From contig LT642148.1 of assembly GCA_900128585.1 (NCBI GenBank), positions 46,146-75,409 on the forward strand: a DNA stretch of 29,264 nucleotides, in the 5' to 3' direction. The notes under the pieces are model-generated. The model did no database searches, had not been told where the DNA came from, and worked only from the letters and a program-made list of their open reading frames with translations. The DNA comes from Stramenopiles sp. TOSAG23-3. Its lineage: Eukaryota; Sar. The translations under genes and the position numbers were made by a program. This document shows, in pieces, positions 100 through 29,264 of this stretch. Position 1 is the stretch's first letter. Each line of letters begins with the position of its first letter.

Positions 100-236
100 A
101 ATTTTTATGGCATAGTGTAGTTTACCAAACCGTTCTCTCTTTTCTCTCTCTCTCTCTCTCTGGCATTCCAACTCTTCCCATCAAAAGTATCATACCGAAA
201 AGGGTTGGACCCAAATTTTTATGGCATAGTGTAGTT
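100..236. repeat. 23-bp direct repeat covering the 3' end of the giant gene
   Basis: The 23 bases at 100-122 are repeated exactly at 214-236, 114 bp apart. The second copy encodes the last residues and stop codon (NYTMP-stop) of the giant gene. The first lies downstream and would carry the same C-terminal codons. The sequence between is unrelated and holds a CT microsatellite at about 143-161. Confidence 0.9.
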
Positions 237-3200
237 GTACATGTCTGGTTCTGGGGCAGACAGGTTCATTGGCATGCCATAATAATCAAGCTGATCGGCT
301 GGTAGAGCCTCGGCGGTGTACCCAAAAGTATTGTTGTAACTGGCGTACTCGCACGATCCGCACCAGTTCGTGTCGCCGGCTGGGCACACTTCGCCCTCTT
401 CTAGGTGAGTAGCGTGAGGATCATAATTGTCCGCGTTCATGTCAGTGCAGCCGTATACTTTTTCTGGCCATATGCAGGTCGTCCCTGCTTCATCGGCTAC
501 CATCTTGGAGTACACAAAGTCACCATTGGGGGAGTAAGTCATTCCACACTCTTCGCAGTAAGGGACAGACATTGCGGTTTCGTCACACCACGGGTCAACG
601 ACCTCGATGAACTCGCTGGTTTCCTCAGTAGCGTTGGCAGTGTAGTTGACCTCAGTCCACGTTTCCCAGGTTGTCCCATCATCCTCAACGTAAACGGTGT
701 GGTTGTACTCAGGTACGTGCATGTCGACGGGCTCGAAGTGCGTGGTAACGATGCTTTTGAAGCTGCAGAACCCATTTCCATCATCGCTCGACGGCTTCGA
801 GTCCCCGTCCTTCCATTGAGAGCACCAATCGCAGTTGTCTGTGCAATAGGCGTGTCCATCCCCGGGGGGAGAGCAATACATCTGCGCGGTGGTGGAAGAT
901 TGCCAATCCCAGCCGTAGTCGGTGGGGTTCCTGCACTTCTCGGCAACCTCTTCTTTCGTGGCCATGCAGGACGTCGCATCGTATTTCTGGTGATCTACGC
1001 CGTGCGGGGGTCTGAACGGCAATCCTGGGCAATCCTCCTCGCACGAGGAGGACGAGTCGAGGCACTGGCGTGTCGTCGGGCACCACACTTTCCATTGGGC
1101 AATGCAATTTTCTTTGGTCTGCTCAATGCAAGTGCGGCTGCCAGCTTGCCAGTCCCATTCCGTCAACGAAAAGCGACCGCAGTGGTCTTCGCACGCCGTG
1201 TCGTCCTTCCATTCTGTATCCTCGCCTCCAATAACGGGGTCTTCGTCGCGGTTGTACGGGAAATTGTTTGGGCGGAGACACGTCTTTGTCAACGGGCAAT
1301 AGGCTTCCGGCTGGGACTGTTCGTACGGCCCCCAGCCTCCCCAATCGTATTTGTATTCAACATTGGCCGTTGCATCTGGGCACGCTGCGTCGCACGTTCC
1401 TGCCTCGCTGTTTGGAATATGGAAATCCACCACCTTCTCGGTCTCCTCCCACATGTAACTCACCTCATTGTGCCCCCACACCATCAACGTATCCGTACAG
1501 TCCGAGCAGTCCGCCGAGCACATTTGGCTGCCTTCGCACCAGTAGTGACCGTTGCCTTTGCACTCTTGCCTCATGTCTTTCTGTTCAACGCACGTGCCCG
1601 ATTTGTTCACTGGAAGTGGCAAATGCTGAACGTTCGCGGGGGTGTACTTGTCCGTTTTGTCATCTGCGCGAACGGGTTTGTAACAATTGTGGCAATCCAT
1701 TACGCACTCGCCAGTAAAAGTTCCGTCTTCCTTAGCCGTTTGGTCGTTCGGGCACCATGCCATACCGGCCCTTACGCAGGCGTCTTTGTCGGCAACTTCG
1801 CACGTTCGTTGTGGGCGATACGTATTCGAGGCACCGTGGTCAACGTGTTTTTTCTTTGCAAGGTGGTTGTTGGAGTCTTCGTCCCATAAATGGCACTCGG
1901 AGGCGCAGTGCTGTACGTCGTACTCCACGCTCTGTTTAGCGGTTTGAATGTTACACCGGTACATTCCAGCCCGCTGAAAGTTTGGATCAGCGGCACAGGT
2001 ATTATTGCCAGATTCAATTGTCAGCGGGTCATTGTTCCAGTCTACACATTTTGTGCCGGAACAATTGGTGAATGTATCGCCAGAGGTCGGGCAGTAGTAT
2101 CCCGTGGTCAGCGCCTTTGGTCGCACGCACTCTCCCGTGTCGGTGTCCCCGGCCGGCGTCCCATCGCACCAATTGCATTTGTCGACGCATTCCGTGCTCC
2201 ACTGTGTTTTGCACAAGAATTTGTTGCCATCAGCTTTGCACGAGGCCTTTGTCACCGGTCCGCACGAGGTCGCGTTGCCGTAGAAAGCATAATTGTTTGC
2301 GGAATGGAAGCGTACTCCTTGGTCGGCGCGACTCTCGCTCAGCTGCGTAAAATGGTGATTGTACATGCCGCTTGCCCCCATGTCCTTCTGGCACGCCCAG
2401 TCGGCGCACTCCTCGACGCAATCCTGGTTCAGTTCACAGAACACTTTGCCAAGTCGCCGGCAAACGTTCGGGTTTGGAATGGCGCACACATGGGTCTTTG
2501 GGTCACCGACGAGATGTGGCGTGATGGTGATGTCGATTCCCGCTATCCCGGTGCTGTTGCCACGGTGGTGGCACTCGCCGTGGCAGTGATCCACGCATTT
2601 GCGGCTTTCTGCGCAGTACATTTGCCCATTGGCGTTGCAGGTCGGGCCCGACGGGGTACCACATACCCTCACGCGCTCGGGGTGGTCGAACACCGAGGAA
2701 TCCATGCAGTTGAAGCACTTGCCATCGACCACAGGGACACACGCTGTCTTCCCAGATTTCGTGGACCTGCAGTACGCTGTCCCGTGTTCGCAACCGGGTG
2801 GTTTGTTGGATTCAACTTTTGGCATATTGTCGTTGCCTGGAAGACTATGGCACTTCTTGGTCATGTTGTTGTACAGGCAGCCCGGGTCCATCTCGCACTC
2901 TTTCCAATTCGAGTGCTCCATGCATTTCTTCTGCGTCCCATCATCGTTGCACGTGGAACATTCTGGGCAGTCTGGGTCGAATCCGGGCAGTTCGCTAGAC
3001 ACGTCAAACCCGGCGCAAAACTCTCCCACGGACGCGTACGTAGGGAAGAACTCTTGAAAGAAGTGAAAGTCCACGGTAATGCCGTCCGCAATGTGCATCG
3101 GGGCGTGCCCCAAATCGCTCAGTTCAATTACCGGCGCTTCGATGTCCGTCTCATGCCGAATCGTCAAGTCAACCGGGAACGTTGGGGATACCAGACTGTC

Positions 3201-6200
3201 CGTGTTCATGGATGACGTGTCGCACACGAAGAACTCCTCTTTTCCGGTCGCCTTAGATACGTCCTTGGTCATCTTTCCAGTCCCAGGGCAGCACGCCTGT
3301 GCGTCGCCAGTTGCATCAAGGCACTGGTTCGCAATGCGGTTGGCAACCTTCGTTGGAAATGTAGCCTGGCCAGAAATGGTGACTGCATCCAAGGACACGA
3401 CGCCGCAGTAATCCATGCTCATGCAGATTTTTTGTTCGCCCTCCTCGTCCGCATTTTTTTCATGAATTTCAAAAAAGAGCCGAAACTCTCCTTTTTCCTT
3501 GTCCCCGAAAATTACAGAGGGCAGGCCCGTCTGTTCGTCCTTGATAAAATGACGTTTTCCATACCCATACCCGGCTCGTCGTACGCTTCGTCCTCATTTT
3601 GCAACAATCTGCGCCGTTCCAACCCTTTGCGTTTTCTTTTCTCCTCTTGTCTCTTTGCCTTCCTCGCAGCCTTTGCGTCCGCCTTCTTGGCTGCTGTTTT
3701 GGCCAACCTATCTGCCTTCTTGGCGTCTTTCTTGTCTTGTTTTCGTGTTTGTTCGTCTTGTTTTCGTTTAGCCTGCTTCTGTTCTTTCTTTTTGGCTTTC
3801 TCCTCCATTATCTGTTCCCGAACGTAATTATCGGGGCCGTTGACGTTATGTTGCATTTCAACCCTCATCGGCGAGTCTTTGCACGGCTCGTGGGTGACAA
3901 CAGCAGTACAGTTGGGCATCGGTCTACCGGTACACCTCACATCTTTCCTCAAGTCTGGCATTGGTTCCTCTAAATGGCCTATCCTTTTCCCTCGAGGATC
4001 GGTGTAAGGTTCAGCGGATCGAACGGGCCGGGCCGAGTCTGTCACGTCATCAAAACTGGTATTGCCGCGCAGCCTTTGGCCTCTGGTCACACGCGTGTCG
4101 ACCCTCTCGTCCTCGGACCTTGGTCTTCTCCCACTCTGCTCCTCGCGGTCCGTGTCGATTCTTGCGCGCGTGTCACGGGCTACAACCTCCCTCCTTCTCG
4201 TGTCTTCCTCTACTGTGCGCACTTCGCGTTGTCGCATTCGAGTGTCAATCTTCTCTCGGGCATTGTCGTACGCCCTTGCGTCTCTCTCTGGGATACCATC
4301 CTCTCTTCTAGTATCTCTCTCATCCTCATCCCTTCTAGTATCTCTCTCATTTTCATCCCTTCCAGGATCCCCTCTCTCATCCCGAGCCTCGTCGCGGCGT
4401 TGCACTTGGACCCTTTCGTCCCTCCCGCTTGTTAGCGACACAGATCTCTCTGTTGCTGTCACCACCATTTCACGAGCGCAGCGGTCAACTTCTCTCTCGC
4501 ATTCGTGGTATGCTTCGCACACACTAATGCACTTGGCCTCTTCTCTGCCACCGGGGGCGGTGGAGAAATAGTCCTTGGTACAGCCACCGCAGTTGCGATC
4601 GCCGTCCGCCATTGTATCAGCGCAATCATCAATTTCTCGCCCCCGCCGCTCCATGACTCTTTCCGTGGTGTCCCTTGTGCTTTCACTTCTTTCTGATGCT
4701 TCCGATCGGGATGCGCGTTCTTGCCGGGTGTCCCTAACTGCCTCCCGAGGGTTTTCAATCCGCGGGTTCTCCCGCTCTCGCTCCTCAGGGCGACGCTCCA
4801 TGTTCATCTCTCGCTCACGGAAGGTTTCGGTAACGGCTGAAGTACCTCTTTCGTTGGACATTCTGTCGACGCGCTCGTTCACCCTTGCCGTCGTGCGTTC
4901 TTGCGTCCTCGCGGTGCCTGAGCCCCTGCCCATTTCGCTAGCGCCTCTGGTCTCACCTCGCAATTTACGCAGCCTGCGCCCGTAGTCATGCTGCTTTAAA
5001 CGGCGGTATGGTGCGAGTGAATCGGGGTGGAATTGCATTTCATGCGTACGGGTGAAGTGCGCGCCCCCATCGCTTGAGGGCTTGTGCGGAAACGTTGTGT
5101 ACGTACAAGGGGCCATCTTGTGGTCCATTGCTTCCAGGGACGCACCCATACCAATAAGGGCATCGACCGCCTCGTCGACATGGTGATTTGCAACGTATGC
5201 ATTATTATTCGATTCAAAGTCAGGGTAGACACTCATTGGGTCGTCGGGTTCGTGGTCCCAAGTTTCCCCCGTGAGGTATAAGTGTTCGTAATCAAACGTG
5301 GCTGGGGTGCAGGCTTGGGTGGTATCCTTGTGGCATGCCAAAGATGTGTTCGCTGCCAAGCTACCGGCGGCATCTGCCGTCTCTACGTATTCGTACATGT
5401 GGTCTACCAAGTACTCCTCTGCGGCATACATGTTCTGCTCTGCTCGAAACGACAGGGCGGCCGAGTGCTGCGTGTGGTTTGCGTGGTGGACCTCAAACTC
5501 TGCCTCGGCCAAATCGTGATTGCAGGGCTCAACGTTTTGTTGAAAAAATTCCAATTGATCGGCAGAAGCCGTCGTTGTAAGCGCTACCTGAAAGTCAAAG
5601 CACGTTTTCTCAACCGTCTCCAAGTGTGCGACTGCTTCCACCATATGGTCCATCGCAACCTCCATTTCCTTGAACGTGTGAGTCTTGTCGCATGTTGCAG
5701 CACCGCACATCGCCGCCTTCTGCGTCGCGGCGTACTCAACGGGTGCAGCAAAGACATCTCCGGGTTGCGCGACGGACTCTTCCGCGTAGTACTCGGGGGT
5801 TCCCATTCCTGCGCCAAGCGCAGCTTCAAAGTTATCGTTCATCCAGTCCTGGTGACCAACGTCGTGTGCCAGTTCCATAGCATGGGCACCGTGGGGCCCC
5901 AAGTCGAACTTGGGTGCGGCGGTGTCGATGTCGTGCATCATGTTTGGGTCGTGCTCAAATTGTGGGGGGGTCTCCATGTCCATCAATCGACGCCTGGTCT
6001 TATGGTGCGCCTTGGCAACACGCCTGGCGCGGAGGTGCGCCTTTCGGACAACGCGTAGCATTTTGCGGTGAAAGGCGTGTTTGGATAGGGCGTGGCGTTT
6101 CGCTGCAAGCAGCCTTCTCCGGGCACGAAGCCTGCGCACATGGTGTGGTCCTTCCGGTACTTGTTTGGCGATAAAATCCATGTCGCCATTGTCAATCTCG

Positions 6201-8494
6201 TACTGGTGAGCGGCGTTGCAATCTTCTACCATGATGCCTGTCGTAGGAGACTCGTACAAGGTCAAATCCGCCGCTGCAACGGGGGCTACCAAGCGTCGGT
6301 ACGCGTGGGCGGCAAGAAGAGGGTGGTACTTGGTCTTAACACTCCTTTTGTGCTTTTTACTGTTCTTGCTCAGGCGACGGTGCTTCTCTTTGAGTCGTCT
6401 CACCCTCCGTACCACGTCGTCGTCGTGCATTTGCATAAAATCGCCCGCCATTGGGCCCATGTGCATGGCCTCATTGCCGCCCGCGGGAGGAAGGCTCGCT
6501 GCTGCCTTGAACTCAATGTCGCCAGTGATACATTCGTGCTCCCCGCATGTCATAGAACCGTCAAAGTTGCACTTTGCGTGGGGCGCTACGTCTTTGACCA
6601 TTTCTTGGCAGTACATGCCCTGGCACATGGTGTGCATTTCTTTCATCATTAAATCGTCCATGCCGTCTGGCGTGTGGGTAACCATGGTCACCTCCGCCTC
6701 CGCTATAGCAACACCGGTAAGATCGTCCATCGTATACTCGCCTTCCATTTCAATCATCTCGTGGTGAGCATCGCTCGTGATGGTTCCATGCTCCTCGTGG
6801 AAGAGACTGGGTATTGGGTGCTCCACCCCGTCATCGTCTGTAAAATGGTCCAAGATGTATTCTTGAACACCAGGATCGTTCGCCGAGCAAGGGTGGGCTG
6901 CCTCTGGGTGATCGCACTGCTTCATAGTGGTGAAATCCATGTTGAACGCCGCCATCGGTGGTGGGGGCTCCATCATCGCTGGGTAGTCTTCGAACACCAT
7001 TTCCATCTTCAAAGGGTCGTACTTCTCCATGTCCACTCCCATGGGGGGTGCTGTGTCTTGGGCAACTTCATACGGTTTCTTGTTCGTTGGGGACGACGTG
7101 CCCTTGGCTTTTACATAGCATGCATTGTCGTAAGGGAGCATCATGGTGCCTTCCGGCCTCTCTGGGTCCAAATTGGTTGCGTCTCCCAGTTGGTTCGCGT
7201 ACACGAACTCCTCCTGCAACGATTTCGAGACGGCGATGGTGCCGTCTGCCCCAAGATGCACTACGCCGTCTGCCCCAGCGGGACCACCGGCTGCTACCGT
7301 GAACTTGGCGGTATTGCCAAAACCTCCGTCTGTTTCCTCCGGTGTCATTGCGCCCTCAAATACGAGATCATTAATGGCAGGGTTTCCTGGGCATGAGACC
7401 ACAATCTCCGAAACAGTCTCTAAGTGCTCTGGGTTCGTCGAACCATCTACAACAAAGGTGCGTGGAGCCCCCTTCACAATCGTCGTTTGTAGCCCAGAGA
7501 GCAATTCGTACGCTTTGTAGTTCGCATGGGCATCGAGATCGACATCGACTGCCGCTGCCACTTCCGGAGCGTCTTTTTTCAGTACCGTAGCCGTCCATTC
7601 AACAGCGTCTTGCGTCATGGTGATGGGGCTATCTTCTGACCCTAGCCCATACTTGACCATAAGTGGGTCAATTACTGCCTTTTCTCCCTTAACAGGGTCC
7701 TTCATAGTCGGGCAATCGTGCGTTGGGACAATCTGCGTCGTGGTACCGTCGTTATACAGGCATATCTCACATTTCAAGCATTCGGGGTCCACCAACGATG
7801 GGTAAATTTCATCCACTGGGGGGGCCGCATGCTCGGCTTCAATGAGTTTCTTGCACTCGTTGCAGTGCTTAAATTTGTCCTCTTTGTGCTTCGTCTGTTT
7901 TTCTTTCCCTGTCATACCCTCCATGGCCATGTATTTAGCTTCCATACTGACATCAATAGGGTCCTTGGGTTCTTCGGGCATCATCGGCGGTTCCATGGCC
8001 ACGGGCTTATCCCATTTCTCGCCTATGGTACTGGCGGGGGTAATGAGCCCCCTTCCCCCTAGCCGTCTCCGTTCAGAAGAGGAAGCGGGCAGTGCGGCAG
8101 AACTTCCAGGGGTTGCGACGGGGGTTCCCCCGCGCACGCGTGATTCTTTCGTGATCTCGATGGCGGCAATCCCCATGCACATGATACATCCAAGACAAAA
8201 TATTATGCCAATTACAATGCCACAAACAATTTTTCGAAGGCGGTTTGCATCTTTTTGAGCACGCTCTGCATCTTCTTCCAAGGATAATATTTCAATAAGT
8301 GATATGTCGCCATCGCCATCTCTGTCAAGTTTTCTTAAATTGCCGATGGTTTGTTTTTGCTTTTTGCTTAGTGTGCCCCCACCCTGGGTGAGGCTTCGTT
8401 CGATTTCGTTTACGTTGAACGTGTAGTCACTCAGACTTTTCCGTCCTGGGCGCTTACCCATTGGGTTTGTTTCAGTCATTTCTACTTCAGCCAT
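219..8494 (-). CDS. Giant EF-hand, single-pass membrane, Cys-rich repeat protein (one gene interrupted by a -1 frame change)
   Basis: I read this as one gene of about 2,758 residues. The start is the ATG at 8494; the longer frame to 8662 begins with TTG. Residues 57-68 (DRDGDGDISLIE) are a canonical EF-hand loop and 89-112 a single transmembrane helix. There is no signal peptide, which suggests a calcium-sensing cytosolic tail and about 2,640 residues outside the cytosol. Then follow acidic Met/His-rich blocks (about 150-690 and 840-1160) divided by basic Arg-Arg-Leu clusters, an Arg/Glu/Asp-rich region (1163-1475), a Lys/Ala/Glu-rich helix (1556-1632) and a Cys-rich region (about 1692-2717) with many N-glycosylation sequons. 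The first frame ends at TAA 3512-3514. The second is open from 3593 through its first ATG at 3422 down to TAA 219-221, so its upstream part reads sensibly without a start. Function is unknown. A cell-surface or extracellular matrix/wall protein is an inference. The alternative is two adjacent genes. Confidence 0.72.
822..2642 (-). repeat. Degenerate Cys-rich modules encoded in the giant gene
   Basis: The encoded protein repeats the pattern C-x(4-9)-aromatic-C-x(5-12)-C-x(3)-C-x(2)-C at irregular spacings of about 60-90 residues. Examples are NGQMYCAESRKCVDHCHGEC, GKVFCELNQDCVEECADWAC, GHYWCEGSQMCSADCSDC and KVWCPTTRQCLDSSSSCEED. I count about eight copies, with diverged linkers. This is a protein-level repeat rather than a recent DNA tandem. 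Disulfide-bonded extracellular modules are likely. Confidence 0.75.
3515..3593 (-). other. Frame-change zone inside the giant gene
   Basis: The upstream frame stops at TAA 3512-3514, and the downstream frame has its last in-frame stop at TGA 3594-3596, so the shift must fall between them. The new frame begins one base earlier (-1). One extra G in the GGG run at 3570-3572 would join the frames through the GGGTAT-GGGTAT tandem. The joined reading continues with a plausible peptide (FIKDEQTGLPSVIFGDKE) while the upstream frame's own tail looks non-coding. No perfect X-XXY-YYZ slippery heptamer is present (the nearest is GGAAAAC), and I see no intron of believable length. A one-base assembly error or a real indel is more likely than programmed frameshifting. 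Confidence 0.7.
4304..4360 (-). repeat. Short in-frame tandem repeat in the Arg/Glu/Asp-rich segment
   Basis: Two adjacent units of 27 nt encode ENERDTRRD and EDERDTRRE within residues 1379-1397 of the giant protein. The DNA units are nearly identical (on the plus strand, tctagtatctctctcatc and tctagtatctctctcatt begin successive copies). It suggests that the charged low-complexity segment grows by slippage. Confidence 0.75.
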
Positions 8495-23370: not shown

Positions 23371-24163
23371 ATGCCACATCGAGCCCCTGCGAAGATTGGC
23401 CCGTCCCTGTTGGCGTGCGACCTTTCAAAGATGGCGTTGGAGGGCAGTGACGTTATGGCCAAGGGCGCTGACTATTTGCATGTGGACGTGATGGATGGAC
23501 ACTTTGTCCCAAATTTGTCCTGGGGTCCGCCAGTCATCAAGTCCCTGCGGAAAAATACCGAAGCGTTTTTGGATGTTCATTTGATGGTATCGAACCCTGA
23601 GTTTTGGGTAGAACCAATGGCAGATGCTGGGTAAGTCTTTAATTATTTCTCTTTTCTCTCTCTCTCTCTCTCGGCTACCCCTTCCAGAATCTGTTACACT
23701 AACATCGCTTCCCCAATTGAACAATCACAGTGCCGACAGCTTTACGTTTCATGTCGAGGCCACAAAAGACCCAAAAGCTTTGATCAATAGTATACGAAAC
23801 GCAAGCCGTAAGATGCAGGTTGGGGTCGCACTCAAACCGAAGACTTCGGTGGACGCTGTGCTGGAGTTTGCGAACGAGTGCGACATACTGCTGGTAATGA
23901 CGGTAGAACCTGGGTTTGGGGGGCAAAAATTCATGGTCCCAATGATGGAAAAGGTGAAAAGATTGCGCGAGCTTTATCCAGAGAAGGACATCCAGGTCGA
24001 TGGTGGGTTGGGCCCTTCGACTATCGATGCGGCGGCGGCGGCTGGAGCCAATATGATTGTTGCTGGCAGTTCCATTTTCAAGTCAAACGATCGCGCAGTG
24101 GTAATCAAACAACTCCGTGATAGTGTAATAAAGTATGGGCACGGGGTCAACGCAAACGTCTAG
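23371..24163 (+). CDS. RPE: Ribulose-phosphate 3-epimerase, two exons
   Basis: Exons 23371-23630 and 23731-24163 give 230 residues. RPE interconverts ribulose 5-phosphate and xylulose 5-phosphate in the pentose phosphate pathway. The TIM-barrel signatures are [13 protein letters not shown] (36-48, catalytic and metal ligand Asp39), DVHLMVSNP (68-76, metal ligand His70), [22 protein letters not shown] (second catalytic Asp) and [12 protein letters not shown] for phosphate binding. The Gly87 codon is split by the intron and the junction restores [16 protein letters not shown]. The start ATG at 23371 gives [14 protein letters not shown]; upstream the frame runs only from TTG. There is no evident leader, so it resembles the cytosolic form. 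Confidence 0.96.
23631..23730 (+). other. Spliceosomal intron of RPE
   Basis: A 100-nt intron with donor GTAAGT (23631-23636), a CT-repeat polypyrimidine tract (about 23653-23672) and acceptor CACAG (ending 23730). Removing it joins GG to TGCC and restores the conserved RPE protein. Confidence 0.95.
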
Positions 24164-27327: not shown

Positions 27328-28530
27328 CTAATTTTCTTCGGCACCGTAAAAGCCTGCACTGCCTTTCGTGCGATTGACTTCGGTGTCCTCTCGCAAAAAC
27401 ATTTCTTGCTCCGCTTCCATAACCAAAGGGTGTAAAGGGTCCACCACCGACAGCTCGTTGATGATGGCCTGGGCAACCTGACTTTTCTTCTTCTTCAACG
27501 CAATGTCTGGCATGTCTTCCCCATCGACGGACATGACGACAGCACGCTCAAAGTTGCCATCCCGGTAGTTGCTTTTGACAAAATCTGCACCGATGTCCTG
27601 CTCCTGGCAGTGGTCGAATTCGTAATCCAGCAGCGGGGCGTGGTTTAGGGCGTCTTGCAGGATGCTCTTCACTTCGCCCGCTTTGCAGTGCTTCATCCAA
27701 TCGTGGTTTGCCAATCCTGCACTACTATCATACTTAATTACTGCCCTTTTCTCGCTACTGAACCCAGCACCAAGGCCTTTCGACACCTTCATCCCGGCCA
27801 GCACCCCGCTGCGGGCGTAGTCCTCCAACAAGGATTTCCGTGCCGAGAACCCTTTGGCCTTCTTGAAGGCGGCGAATTCCGCGGCGTATTCGTCGAAATC
27901 ACTGCCGTGGATGAGCGTTGAAGGGAATTCTATGCTTTCCAGGACGGAGTGATACGTTGCAGATCCTACCATGGATAGGGGGACTACCACGTCTGCCCCA
28001 GCATTGTAGAGCACGTTCACGGCCTTAGTATATTCCGCCCGGCTACGGCAGTCGTCAACGGCGCAGACAACGTTGCACCCCTTGGCCTTCCCCATACGGA
28101 CCAAATCCATGCTGAACAACCCGTGGTCGGCCACCGAAAGAAAGGTCGACCCGGACACAACCGTCGACAAAATGTGCAGTGCGGCACTCGGGGTGCTGGC
28201 CAGGGTCGCGCCAACCAAGGGATCTAACCACTCGCCATCGTCCACTTTCAAGAAGCTCCCCTCCCCCGCAACTACGTTACTATAACCGTCGGCACGGACT
28301 TTCTGGTCCGCGGGAAGGACATAATCGTCAACCTTCAAGTCTTTCACTTTAGGGCCGACCTGTGTTACGCGCCCTAGAAACGAGCGAGAGCCACCGCCCT
28401 CTTCCAAGTCAACAGGTTGGATGCACGAAACTTCCGACACAACCTCTACGTTTGCGCCAGACACACTAGAAAACGCCCGCGAGGCCCCAGCCGTGTTCCG
28501 TGCTACCCGGACAACATTTCGAGCAAACAT
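27328..28530 (-). CDS. Divergent mitochondrial MDR-superfamily protein resembling enoyl-CoA/ACP reductase (MECR/ETR1)
   Basis: 400 residues from ATG 28530, which begins a strong presequence (MFARNVVRVARNTAGASRAF). An upstream in-frame ATG at 28611 would add 27 residues in front of it. Residues about 51-160 resemble the MECR/ETR1 order: GRVTQVGPKVKDLKVDDYVLPA, then FLKVDDGEW, then GATLASTPSAALHILSTV, then a Rossmann-like beta-alpha-beta ending CNVVCAVDD. The glycine-rich NADPH loop expected after the SAALHIL helix is replaced by VADHGLFSMDL, and the N-terminal part with MECR's catalytic Tyr is missing or unrecognisable. The last 170 residues match nothing I know. It may be a non-catalytic relative or a new function; the MECR link is an inference. 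Confidence 0.6.
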   Translation of the reverse strand: MFARNVVRVARNTAGASRAFSSVSGANVEVVSEVSCIQPVDLEEGGGSRSFLGRVTQVGPKVKDLKVDDYVLPADQKVRADGYSNVVAGEGSFLKVDDGEWLDPLVGATLASTPSAALHILSTVVSGSTFLSVADHGLFSMDLVRMGKAKGCNVVCAVDDCRSRAEYTKAVNVLYNAGADVVVPLSMVGSATYHSVLESIEFPSTLIHGSDFDEYAAEFAAFKKAKGFSARKSLLEDYARSGVLAGMKVSKGLGAGFSSEKRAVIKYDSSAGLANHDWMKHCKAGEVKSILQDALNHAPLLDYEFDHCQEQDIGADFVKSNYRDGNFERAVVMSVDGEDMPDIALKKKKSQVAQAIINELSVVDPLHPLVMEAEQEMFLREDTEVNRTKGSAGFYGAEEN

Positions 28531-29264
28531 TTTCTTCGTTGGGTTGTGAGTATAGCTGGTGGTGCAATGTCTTACTAGGAGAAATGTCGACGGTACTTGT
28601 TCGCGACACATACATTTACGAAATTAGAAGCGGAAATATATTTTCCTAAAATCTTCCATACAGTTTGTCATGTTCAATATTCTTAATTTAATACGAGAGA
28701 GGAGGATTGAGATACCACTATAAGAAGATCCGATGATGTGGTTGTTCTCTTTCCGTTGTCATGTGCTACCAAGGTAATAATAATATGATGAAATTCATTT
28801 TTTATTGCTTCCTCTGTTTGCTTTTTGGTGGTCCGTCCGTCGATTTCCTTCGTGTGTGCATAATATATTTCAAATGCCTTATATATATTGTGTTAAAGTT
28901 AGGGTATATATATATGTGGGTGCTTTCGTGACAATCACCCTTTCAAGTCGTTGGCTTCACACGTCACCGGCCTAAGGATTCTTCTTCTTTCCTCATCACT
29001 ACCATAAATTAATTCCAAAGAAAATAACAATGGAGTGACGTATATATTCATTCCCCTATAATGTACATATGTACATGTATAGACAACTAAAAACGCGATA
29101 ATATATAGGGAATATCGAACCACTTTGTGAGTATAAAACGTTGTATTGTTGGGAGCTTTGGTTTGGGTTTTTGTTGTTTTGTTGTCGTGTTGTTGTGAGA
29201 AAAAAAAGTGTGTGTTGTTTTTTCGATAGTCTAAATAATTGATGTTTTTTATTACCTTTTGTAT
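28531..29264. other. Upstream flank of the MDR-like gene
   Basis: AT-rich sequence with a TACCAAGGTAATAATA motif at 28767-28782, identical to 15746-15761, a TATATATATATG run near 28905-28916 and GTTGTT repeats near the window edge. An open frame at 28935-29123 (minus) starts with GTG and has no recognisable domain. No gene is called. Confidence 0.65.

Follow-up and report, generated by a model that had tools for sequence, protein, structure and literature searches.

A giant stramenopile protein with an EF-hand, a single hydrophobic helix, over-represented Arg-Arg-Leu tripeptides and a repeated six-cysteine module, possibly a membrane-tethered precursor

The 29,264-nucleotide stretch of Stramenopiles sp. 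TOSAG23-3 analyzed here (the window; C408:46146-75409 of assembly G000, 12.88 Mb in 660 contigs) encodes on its minus strand a giant protein in which the tripeptide Arg-Arg-Leu (RRL) is over-represented near the borders of charged blocks and a six-Cys module is repeated; both features are new. The coding sequence occupies two open reading frames (ORFs), ORF1 (3512..8494; 1660 codons, with the ATG at 8494) and the Cys-rich ORF2 (219..3593; 1124 codons from stop to stop), so that the single reading of about 2,758 residues proposed earlier was a join made by the reader. A paralog on contig C639 (L006) of the same genome, which reads without a stop through 1760 codons starting at the contig edge, displays the same order of a basic RRL block, an APC[TS]Y...DGG region, an Arg-rich region and a Cys-rich part. 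We consider the chances to be about even that the protein is a type II membrane-tethered precursor that would be cut at the RRL sites into extracellular structural proteins.

The RRL tripeptide was first spotted by eye and counted afterwards. ORF1 harbors 10 copies, with 0.85 expected from shuffles within 40 residues, making RRL its most over-represented tripeptide, and its excess of 9.15 is more than any tripeptide attained in 300 shuffles (8.41 at most). RRL is again the top tripeptide in the C639 paralog (5 copies versus 0.48 expected; 0 of 500 shuffles reach 5), in which the family-wise test was not passed, with an excess of 4.52 versus a mean maximum of 4.05. When shuffling was carried out within 30 or 60 residues, the observed number was reached in 0 of 2000 shuffles for either protein. 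In ORF1, enrichment was absent for RR (25 versus 23.9 expected) and for the furin-type pattern R-x-[KR]-R (4 versus 5.5). The ten RRL sites of ORF1 are encoded by ten different codon combinations, indicating that they are not the product of one recent repeat. As a background, 77 ORFs of at least 120 amino acids from the first 10 kb of contigs C1-C20 contained 17 RRL (about 12 expected), and none of the 77 contained three or more. This ordinary density suggests that RRL is special to the giant-protein family, as far as sampled.

The sites are distributed along a chain of charged blocks (all on the minus strand), whose strongly acidic and strongly basic segments alternate between net charges of -16 and +20 per 60 residues. 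The first RRL (residue 143; 8060..8068) lies about 30 residues past the membrane helix, ahead of an acidic Met/His-rich block defined by composition (approximately residues 170-690; 6425..7987). A basic block (approximately residues 694-838; 5981..6415) follows, with RRL at residues 699, 706, 733, 787, 793 and 835; the C639 paralog has a similar block with RRL at 96, 121 and 140, and the two basic blocks agree in place and kind. The central acidic His/Ala-rich region (5015..5980) ends in APCTYTTFPHKPSSDGG, the C639 counterpart of which is APCSYVNVPSEPSDNGG, and is followed by RRL at residues 1164 and 1173 and RKL at 1176 (4961..5005). An Arg/Glu/Asp-rich region (approximately residues 1180-1520; 3935..4957), which includes a small Cys cluster, precedes a Lys/Ala-rich stretch (residues 1560-1627; 3614..3817) that is common to P0001 and P0002, two homologs from outside this genome. 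The last RRL (residue 1628; 3605..3613) stands immediately ahead of the Cys-rich part and is RRL in P0001 and RKL in P0002. The sequence-only reading had listed the acidic Met/His-rich blocks, Arg-Arg-Leu clusters, Arg/Glu/Asp-rich region and Lys/Ala stretch, all of which are present by composition, and had not singled out the clusters as a motif.

At the N terminus, an EF-hand loop can be read at residues 57-68 (8291..8326). A canonical 12-residue EF loop carries D, N or S at positions 1, 3 and 5, G at position 6 and E at position 12, and the loop here, DRDGDGDISLIE, conforms to this consensus, as had been proposed. Its match to Pfam EF-hand_5 (E=0.014, 15.3 bits) falls below the gathering cut-off of 25.9, and the equivalent loop on contig C70 (L007) matches EF-hand_1 at 16 bits, below the cut-off of 25.4. 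The earlier term "calcium-responsive" is based on this one loop, for which calcium binding is predicted. The single transmembrane helix at residues 89-112 (8159..8230) was likewise recovered: the Kyte-Doolittle mean over 19 residues peaks at residue 89 with 2.87. No other helix was found, as this mean does not exceed 0.93 elsewhere in ORF1 or 1.27 anywhere in ORF2. The helix is followed by ITKESRVRGG (VTKENHTKGG in C70). Because the Cys-rich, sequon-bearing part lies far behind this sole helix, the topology would be type II (N-in, C-out), and this layout of a short EF-hand tail, one helix and a very large outer part fits the terms "anchor" and "precursor" used previously. The C70 sequences come from a second family member, of which the EF-hand/helix start lies at the end of that contig; the ORF1 N terminus matches this start at 45.1 bits (at most 18.9 in 60 locally shuffled controls), and it possibly supplies the start that the C639 gene lacks. 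Beside this gene start, C70 also carries a secreted-looking 691-residue open frame (minus strand) with EGF-like and laminin-G-like features recognized by eye.

The Cys-rich part, previously estimated at about 1,000 residues, is borne out by 84 Cys in the 1124 residues of ORF2. A module of the form C-x7..9-C-x7..8-C-x5..15-C-x3..6-C-x2..4-C occurs six times in ORF2 and five times in the paralog, whereas 1000 shuffles gave a mean of 0.013 (maximum 1) for ORF2 and 0.016 (maximum 2) for the paralog. The six copies in ORF2 (minus strand) are found at residues 311-341 (2571..2663), 370-401 (2391..2486), 444-476 (2166..2264), 598-637 (1683..1802), 668-699 (1497..1592) and 822-855 (1029..1130). In an alignment of six sequences over ORF2 residues 361-1124, Cys shows the highest rate of invariance among residues (57 of 59), with Pro at 26 of 45 and Gly at 19 of 51. 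ORF2 also harbors 12 N-glycosylation sequons, 6 of which keep N-x-S/T in all six aligned sequences. Disulfide bonding and N-glycosylation of this part are thus predicted from its residues. The C-terminal YGCTDMNADNYDPHAT stretch (219-461, minus strand) has no Pfam match; we take it to resemble the GCTDxxAxNYxPxA motif of many secreted proteins.

The absence of a recognized family was confirmed. Neither ORF1 nor ORF2 gave a Pfam or NCBIfam match at E≤1, comparison with PHROGs and PDB sequences identified no described family, and in scans at E≤10 of the frames, their pieces and their relatives all matches remained under the curated cut-offs, those to EF-hand models included. Searches of 5.8 billion proteins, in which candidates were restricted by length and shared words, identified six homologs outside this genome (P0001-P0006), two annotated as "hypothetical protein" and four unnamed. 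Apart from G000, every member of the family found here is a metagenome protein that is either unnamed or labeled "hypothetical".

A processed precursor with charged blocks is of a known kind. RRL, or more generally RXL, is the presumed processing motif of diatom biosilica precursors, the protease being unidentified according to the cited work (PMC5525289, PMC5647440, PMC4557024) and termed "yet unknown" in 2017 (PMC5525289); a role of RXL in precursor processing was described as still to be proven (PMC5647440). As in the silaffins, silacidins, cingulins and frustulins, RRL in the giant protein stands after or between blocks, from which release by an endoprotease is presumed (PMC4557024, PMC5525289), and it occurs beyond chance, with its placing at borders judged by eye. 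In frustulins, cingulins and silacidins, RXL is found at repeat ends (PMC4557024). As far as the cited descriptions go, the anchor and the Cys-module part of the giant protein differ from the described RXL proteins: in the diatom precursors a signal peptide or a repeat comes before RXL, whereas here an EF-hand tail and a probable signal anchor do, and silaffins, cingulins and silacidins are described with one or no Cys (PMC5525289), in contrast to 84 Cys and a module repeat. A further difference lies in the host, for which silica making is conjectural.

Membrane-bound precedents were compared as well. Silicanin-1 (Sin1) shares one transmembrane helix, RRL and conserved luminal Cys, and its luminal part is cut from the anchor (PMC5525289); silicanin homologs of Parmales are also reported to carry RXL (PMC10328945). 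Sin1 is set apart by being described as a type I protein that has 18 Cys and an NQ-rich domain and whose helix is C-terminal. The giant protein departs from the silicanin pattern of an N-terminal signal peptide and a C-terminal helix, its sole helix lying at ORF1 residues 89-112 with none in ORF2; N plus Q make up 5.9% of ORF1 and 8.3% of ORF2, values that at the level of whole frames do not indicate an NQ-rich domain. The silicalemma-associated proteins TpSAPs are likewise membrane tethered, with one helix and RXL sites, and are cut (PMC5647440), but are described with a signal peptide, a serine-rich luminal part and a cytosolic C terminus. Substrates of site-1 protease such as plant RALF precursors resemble the giant protein in having an RRXL-type site in a secretory precursor (PMC11371470, PMC5258720); they are typically 80-120 amino acids long (PMC11371470), as against ten RRL in a giant chain here.

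The genome encodes a candidate for the cutting enzyme. A site-1 protease ortholog (L032; match at C449:16139-16930) lies in a 1004-codon open frame, scores 838 bits to PDB chain 8uwc and contains MBTPS1-specific Pfam domains; a second subtilase-family match is present on C350. Plant site-1 protease cuts RRXL/RRIL sites (PMC11371470, PMC5258720), and a subtilase other than site-1 protease is reported to cut RRLM (PMC13157962), a tetrapeptide present at ORF1 residue 835. The giant protein thus has RxLx-type sites, which would face the lumen, in a genome with a site-1 protease gene. In a literature search made under the full name of site-1 protease, no paper listed brought all three of site-1 protease, RXL and diatoms together.

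Taken as a precursor, the protein may function as follows. The short cytosolic tail with its EF-hand and the signal-anchor helix would send a chain of about 2,600 residues into the secretory pathway, in which acidic Met/His, basic, acidic helical, Arg/Glu and Lys/Ala blocks would be followed by about 1,100 C-terminal residues that are N-glycosylated and rich in disulfides. Most likely, an RXL-type endoprotease acting in the Golgi or beyond it would cut at the RRL sites, which are located past the membrane helix, inside the basic block and at its ends, and ahead of both the Arg/Glu block and the Cys-rich part; the site-1 protease ortholog is the leading candidate. The cuts would free a Cys-rich scaffold and oppositely charged blocks, which may co-assemble outside the cell into a coat, scale, lorica or matrix.

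Several points weigh against this proposal. The block borders were set by eye with the RRL sites in view, which affects the statement that the sites lie at borders, and the RRL clusters could be conserved basic patches. The relatives found cover the C-terminal part only, so that the earlier RRL sites were compared in one paralog. Among the sampled ORFs, the 12 with a hydrophobic N terminus contained 1 RRL versus 1.0 expected; a general RXL secretion signal was therefore not seen in this sample. Site-1 protease is widespread in eukaryotes, and its presence is consequently weak evidence; several of the sites (RRLG, RRLR) are also not obviously good sites for it. At the join, the copy in the window has a frame shift and lacks about 15 residues. 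Finally, no silicon transporter (PF03842) was found in the genome, in a search in which no control genome passed the cut-off either and which is limited by assembly completeness, so that RXL may lack its biosilica context here; silicon could also enter by way of other proteins.

The protein may instead be an uncut giant surface adhesin or receptor, a reading that we find possible but unlikely, in which the Cys-rich modules form a rigid binding stalk, the charged blocks act as spacers, the RRL sites are basic patches and the EF-hand tail couples to the cytoskeleton or to calcium signaling. Against this reading, a need for positive charge alone would not account for an enrichment of RRL that RR and basic pairs do not share, and a Foldseek search gave no match at E≤0.001. 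Less probable still is a single-chain polyanion or mineral scaffold without proteolysis, the charged blocks of which would coacervate or bind silica, calcium carbonate or polysaccharide. The alternation of charge and the RXL likeness to biosilica proteins, as these are described, would suit such a scaffold, but it gives no reason for RRL over any other basic string, and the silicon transporter search was negative.

The relation between the two frames bears on whether this is one gene. They overlap at 3512..3593, and by tblastn residues 1-100 of P0001 match the ORF1 frame down to 3551 and its remainder matches the ORF2 frame from 3548. At this break the window is about 43 nucleotides shorter than P0001, amounting to about 15 fewer residues, 2 of them Cys, plus a frame change; P0002 has a stretch similar to that of P0001, and both are intact there. 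P0001 (93% identical to ORF2) and P0002 (68%) start within the end of ORF1 and continue into the Cys-rich part in one frame. The C639 paralog matches ORF2 at 196 bits, a score for which 60 local shuffles reached no more than 42, and its first 700 residues match ORF1 at 43.5 bits (at most 35.8 in 60 local shuffles). Under composition correction the latter match shrank to residues 1074-1179 (E=1.4e-5), indicating that only these residues of ORF1 are securely homologous. Since P0001 and P0002 read through the join and C639 unites the corresponding parts in one frame, we conclude that the family has one gene; the earlier concern that there are two separate genes is largely answered, with the window copy itself remaining frame-shifted. 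That the Cys-rich frame is a separate gene, or the window copy a decaying pseudogene, is suggested by the differing frames and by the calling of P0001 and P0002 from Met codons inside the ORF1 end with the upstream part unseen, but is very improbable given the Lys/Ala stretch joined to the Cys-rich part in both homologs, the basic block, APC[TS]Y region and Cys-rich part united in the 1760 open codons of C639, and two frames fully open outside the join, for which an assembly error or one recent lesion is a better explanation than decay.

The neighboring genes are ordinary. A Pfam family could be assigned to seven of the eight window ORFs scanned: G6PDH, nucleoside phosphorylase, thioesterase, SURF1, a class I tRNA synthetase (valyl type), ribulose-phosphate epimerase and cyclophilin. 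The epimerase match (23612-24160, plus strand) starts only at profile position 73, indicating that an upstream exon or frame is missing from that open frame. A 431-residue open frame at 27331-28623 (minus strand) has no Pfam match at E≤0.001. Antisense open frames of 494 and 441 codons (405-1889 and 1890-3215, plus strand) face ORF2 and are probably by-products of its codon use. Past the left end of the window and downstream of the giant gene, the next gene (L008:1281-4517, minus strand) is an open frame of 1079 residues that matches the Pfam glycosyltransferase domain Gly_transf_sug (DXD) at E=8.7e-12; a run of masked bases in the middle of this stretch of C408 appears as X in translations. 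Markers of a stramenopile host did not emerge from the 12.9 Mb, 660-contig assembly, the completeness of which limits the search: besides the silicon transporter, no chlorophyll a/b-binding protein was found, and the sole TPI found has an open frame of 268 amino acids, a length that leaves no room for a GAPDH fusion without an intervening intron.

With considerable doubt, we put forward the broader proposal that the protein represents a new family of polyproteins, giant and membrane-tethered, from an apparently nonphotosynthetic protist, in which ordinary site-1 protease would carry out RRL-specific processing and split a calcium-sensing anchored chain into oppositely charged and disulfide-rich parts of the cell covering. 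If this is true, the RXL protease that acts on diatom silica proteins, as yet unidentified, could also be a site-1 protease. If the protein is cleaved as proposed, one gene would supply several cell-covering parts in stoichiometric amounts through one anchored precursor, and use of the RXL code would no longer be confined to silica-associated proteins from diatoms and the sister group of diatoms. The giant-protein family, which has no characterized member, represents a part of the surface biology of protists.
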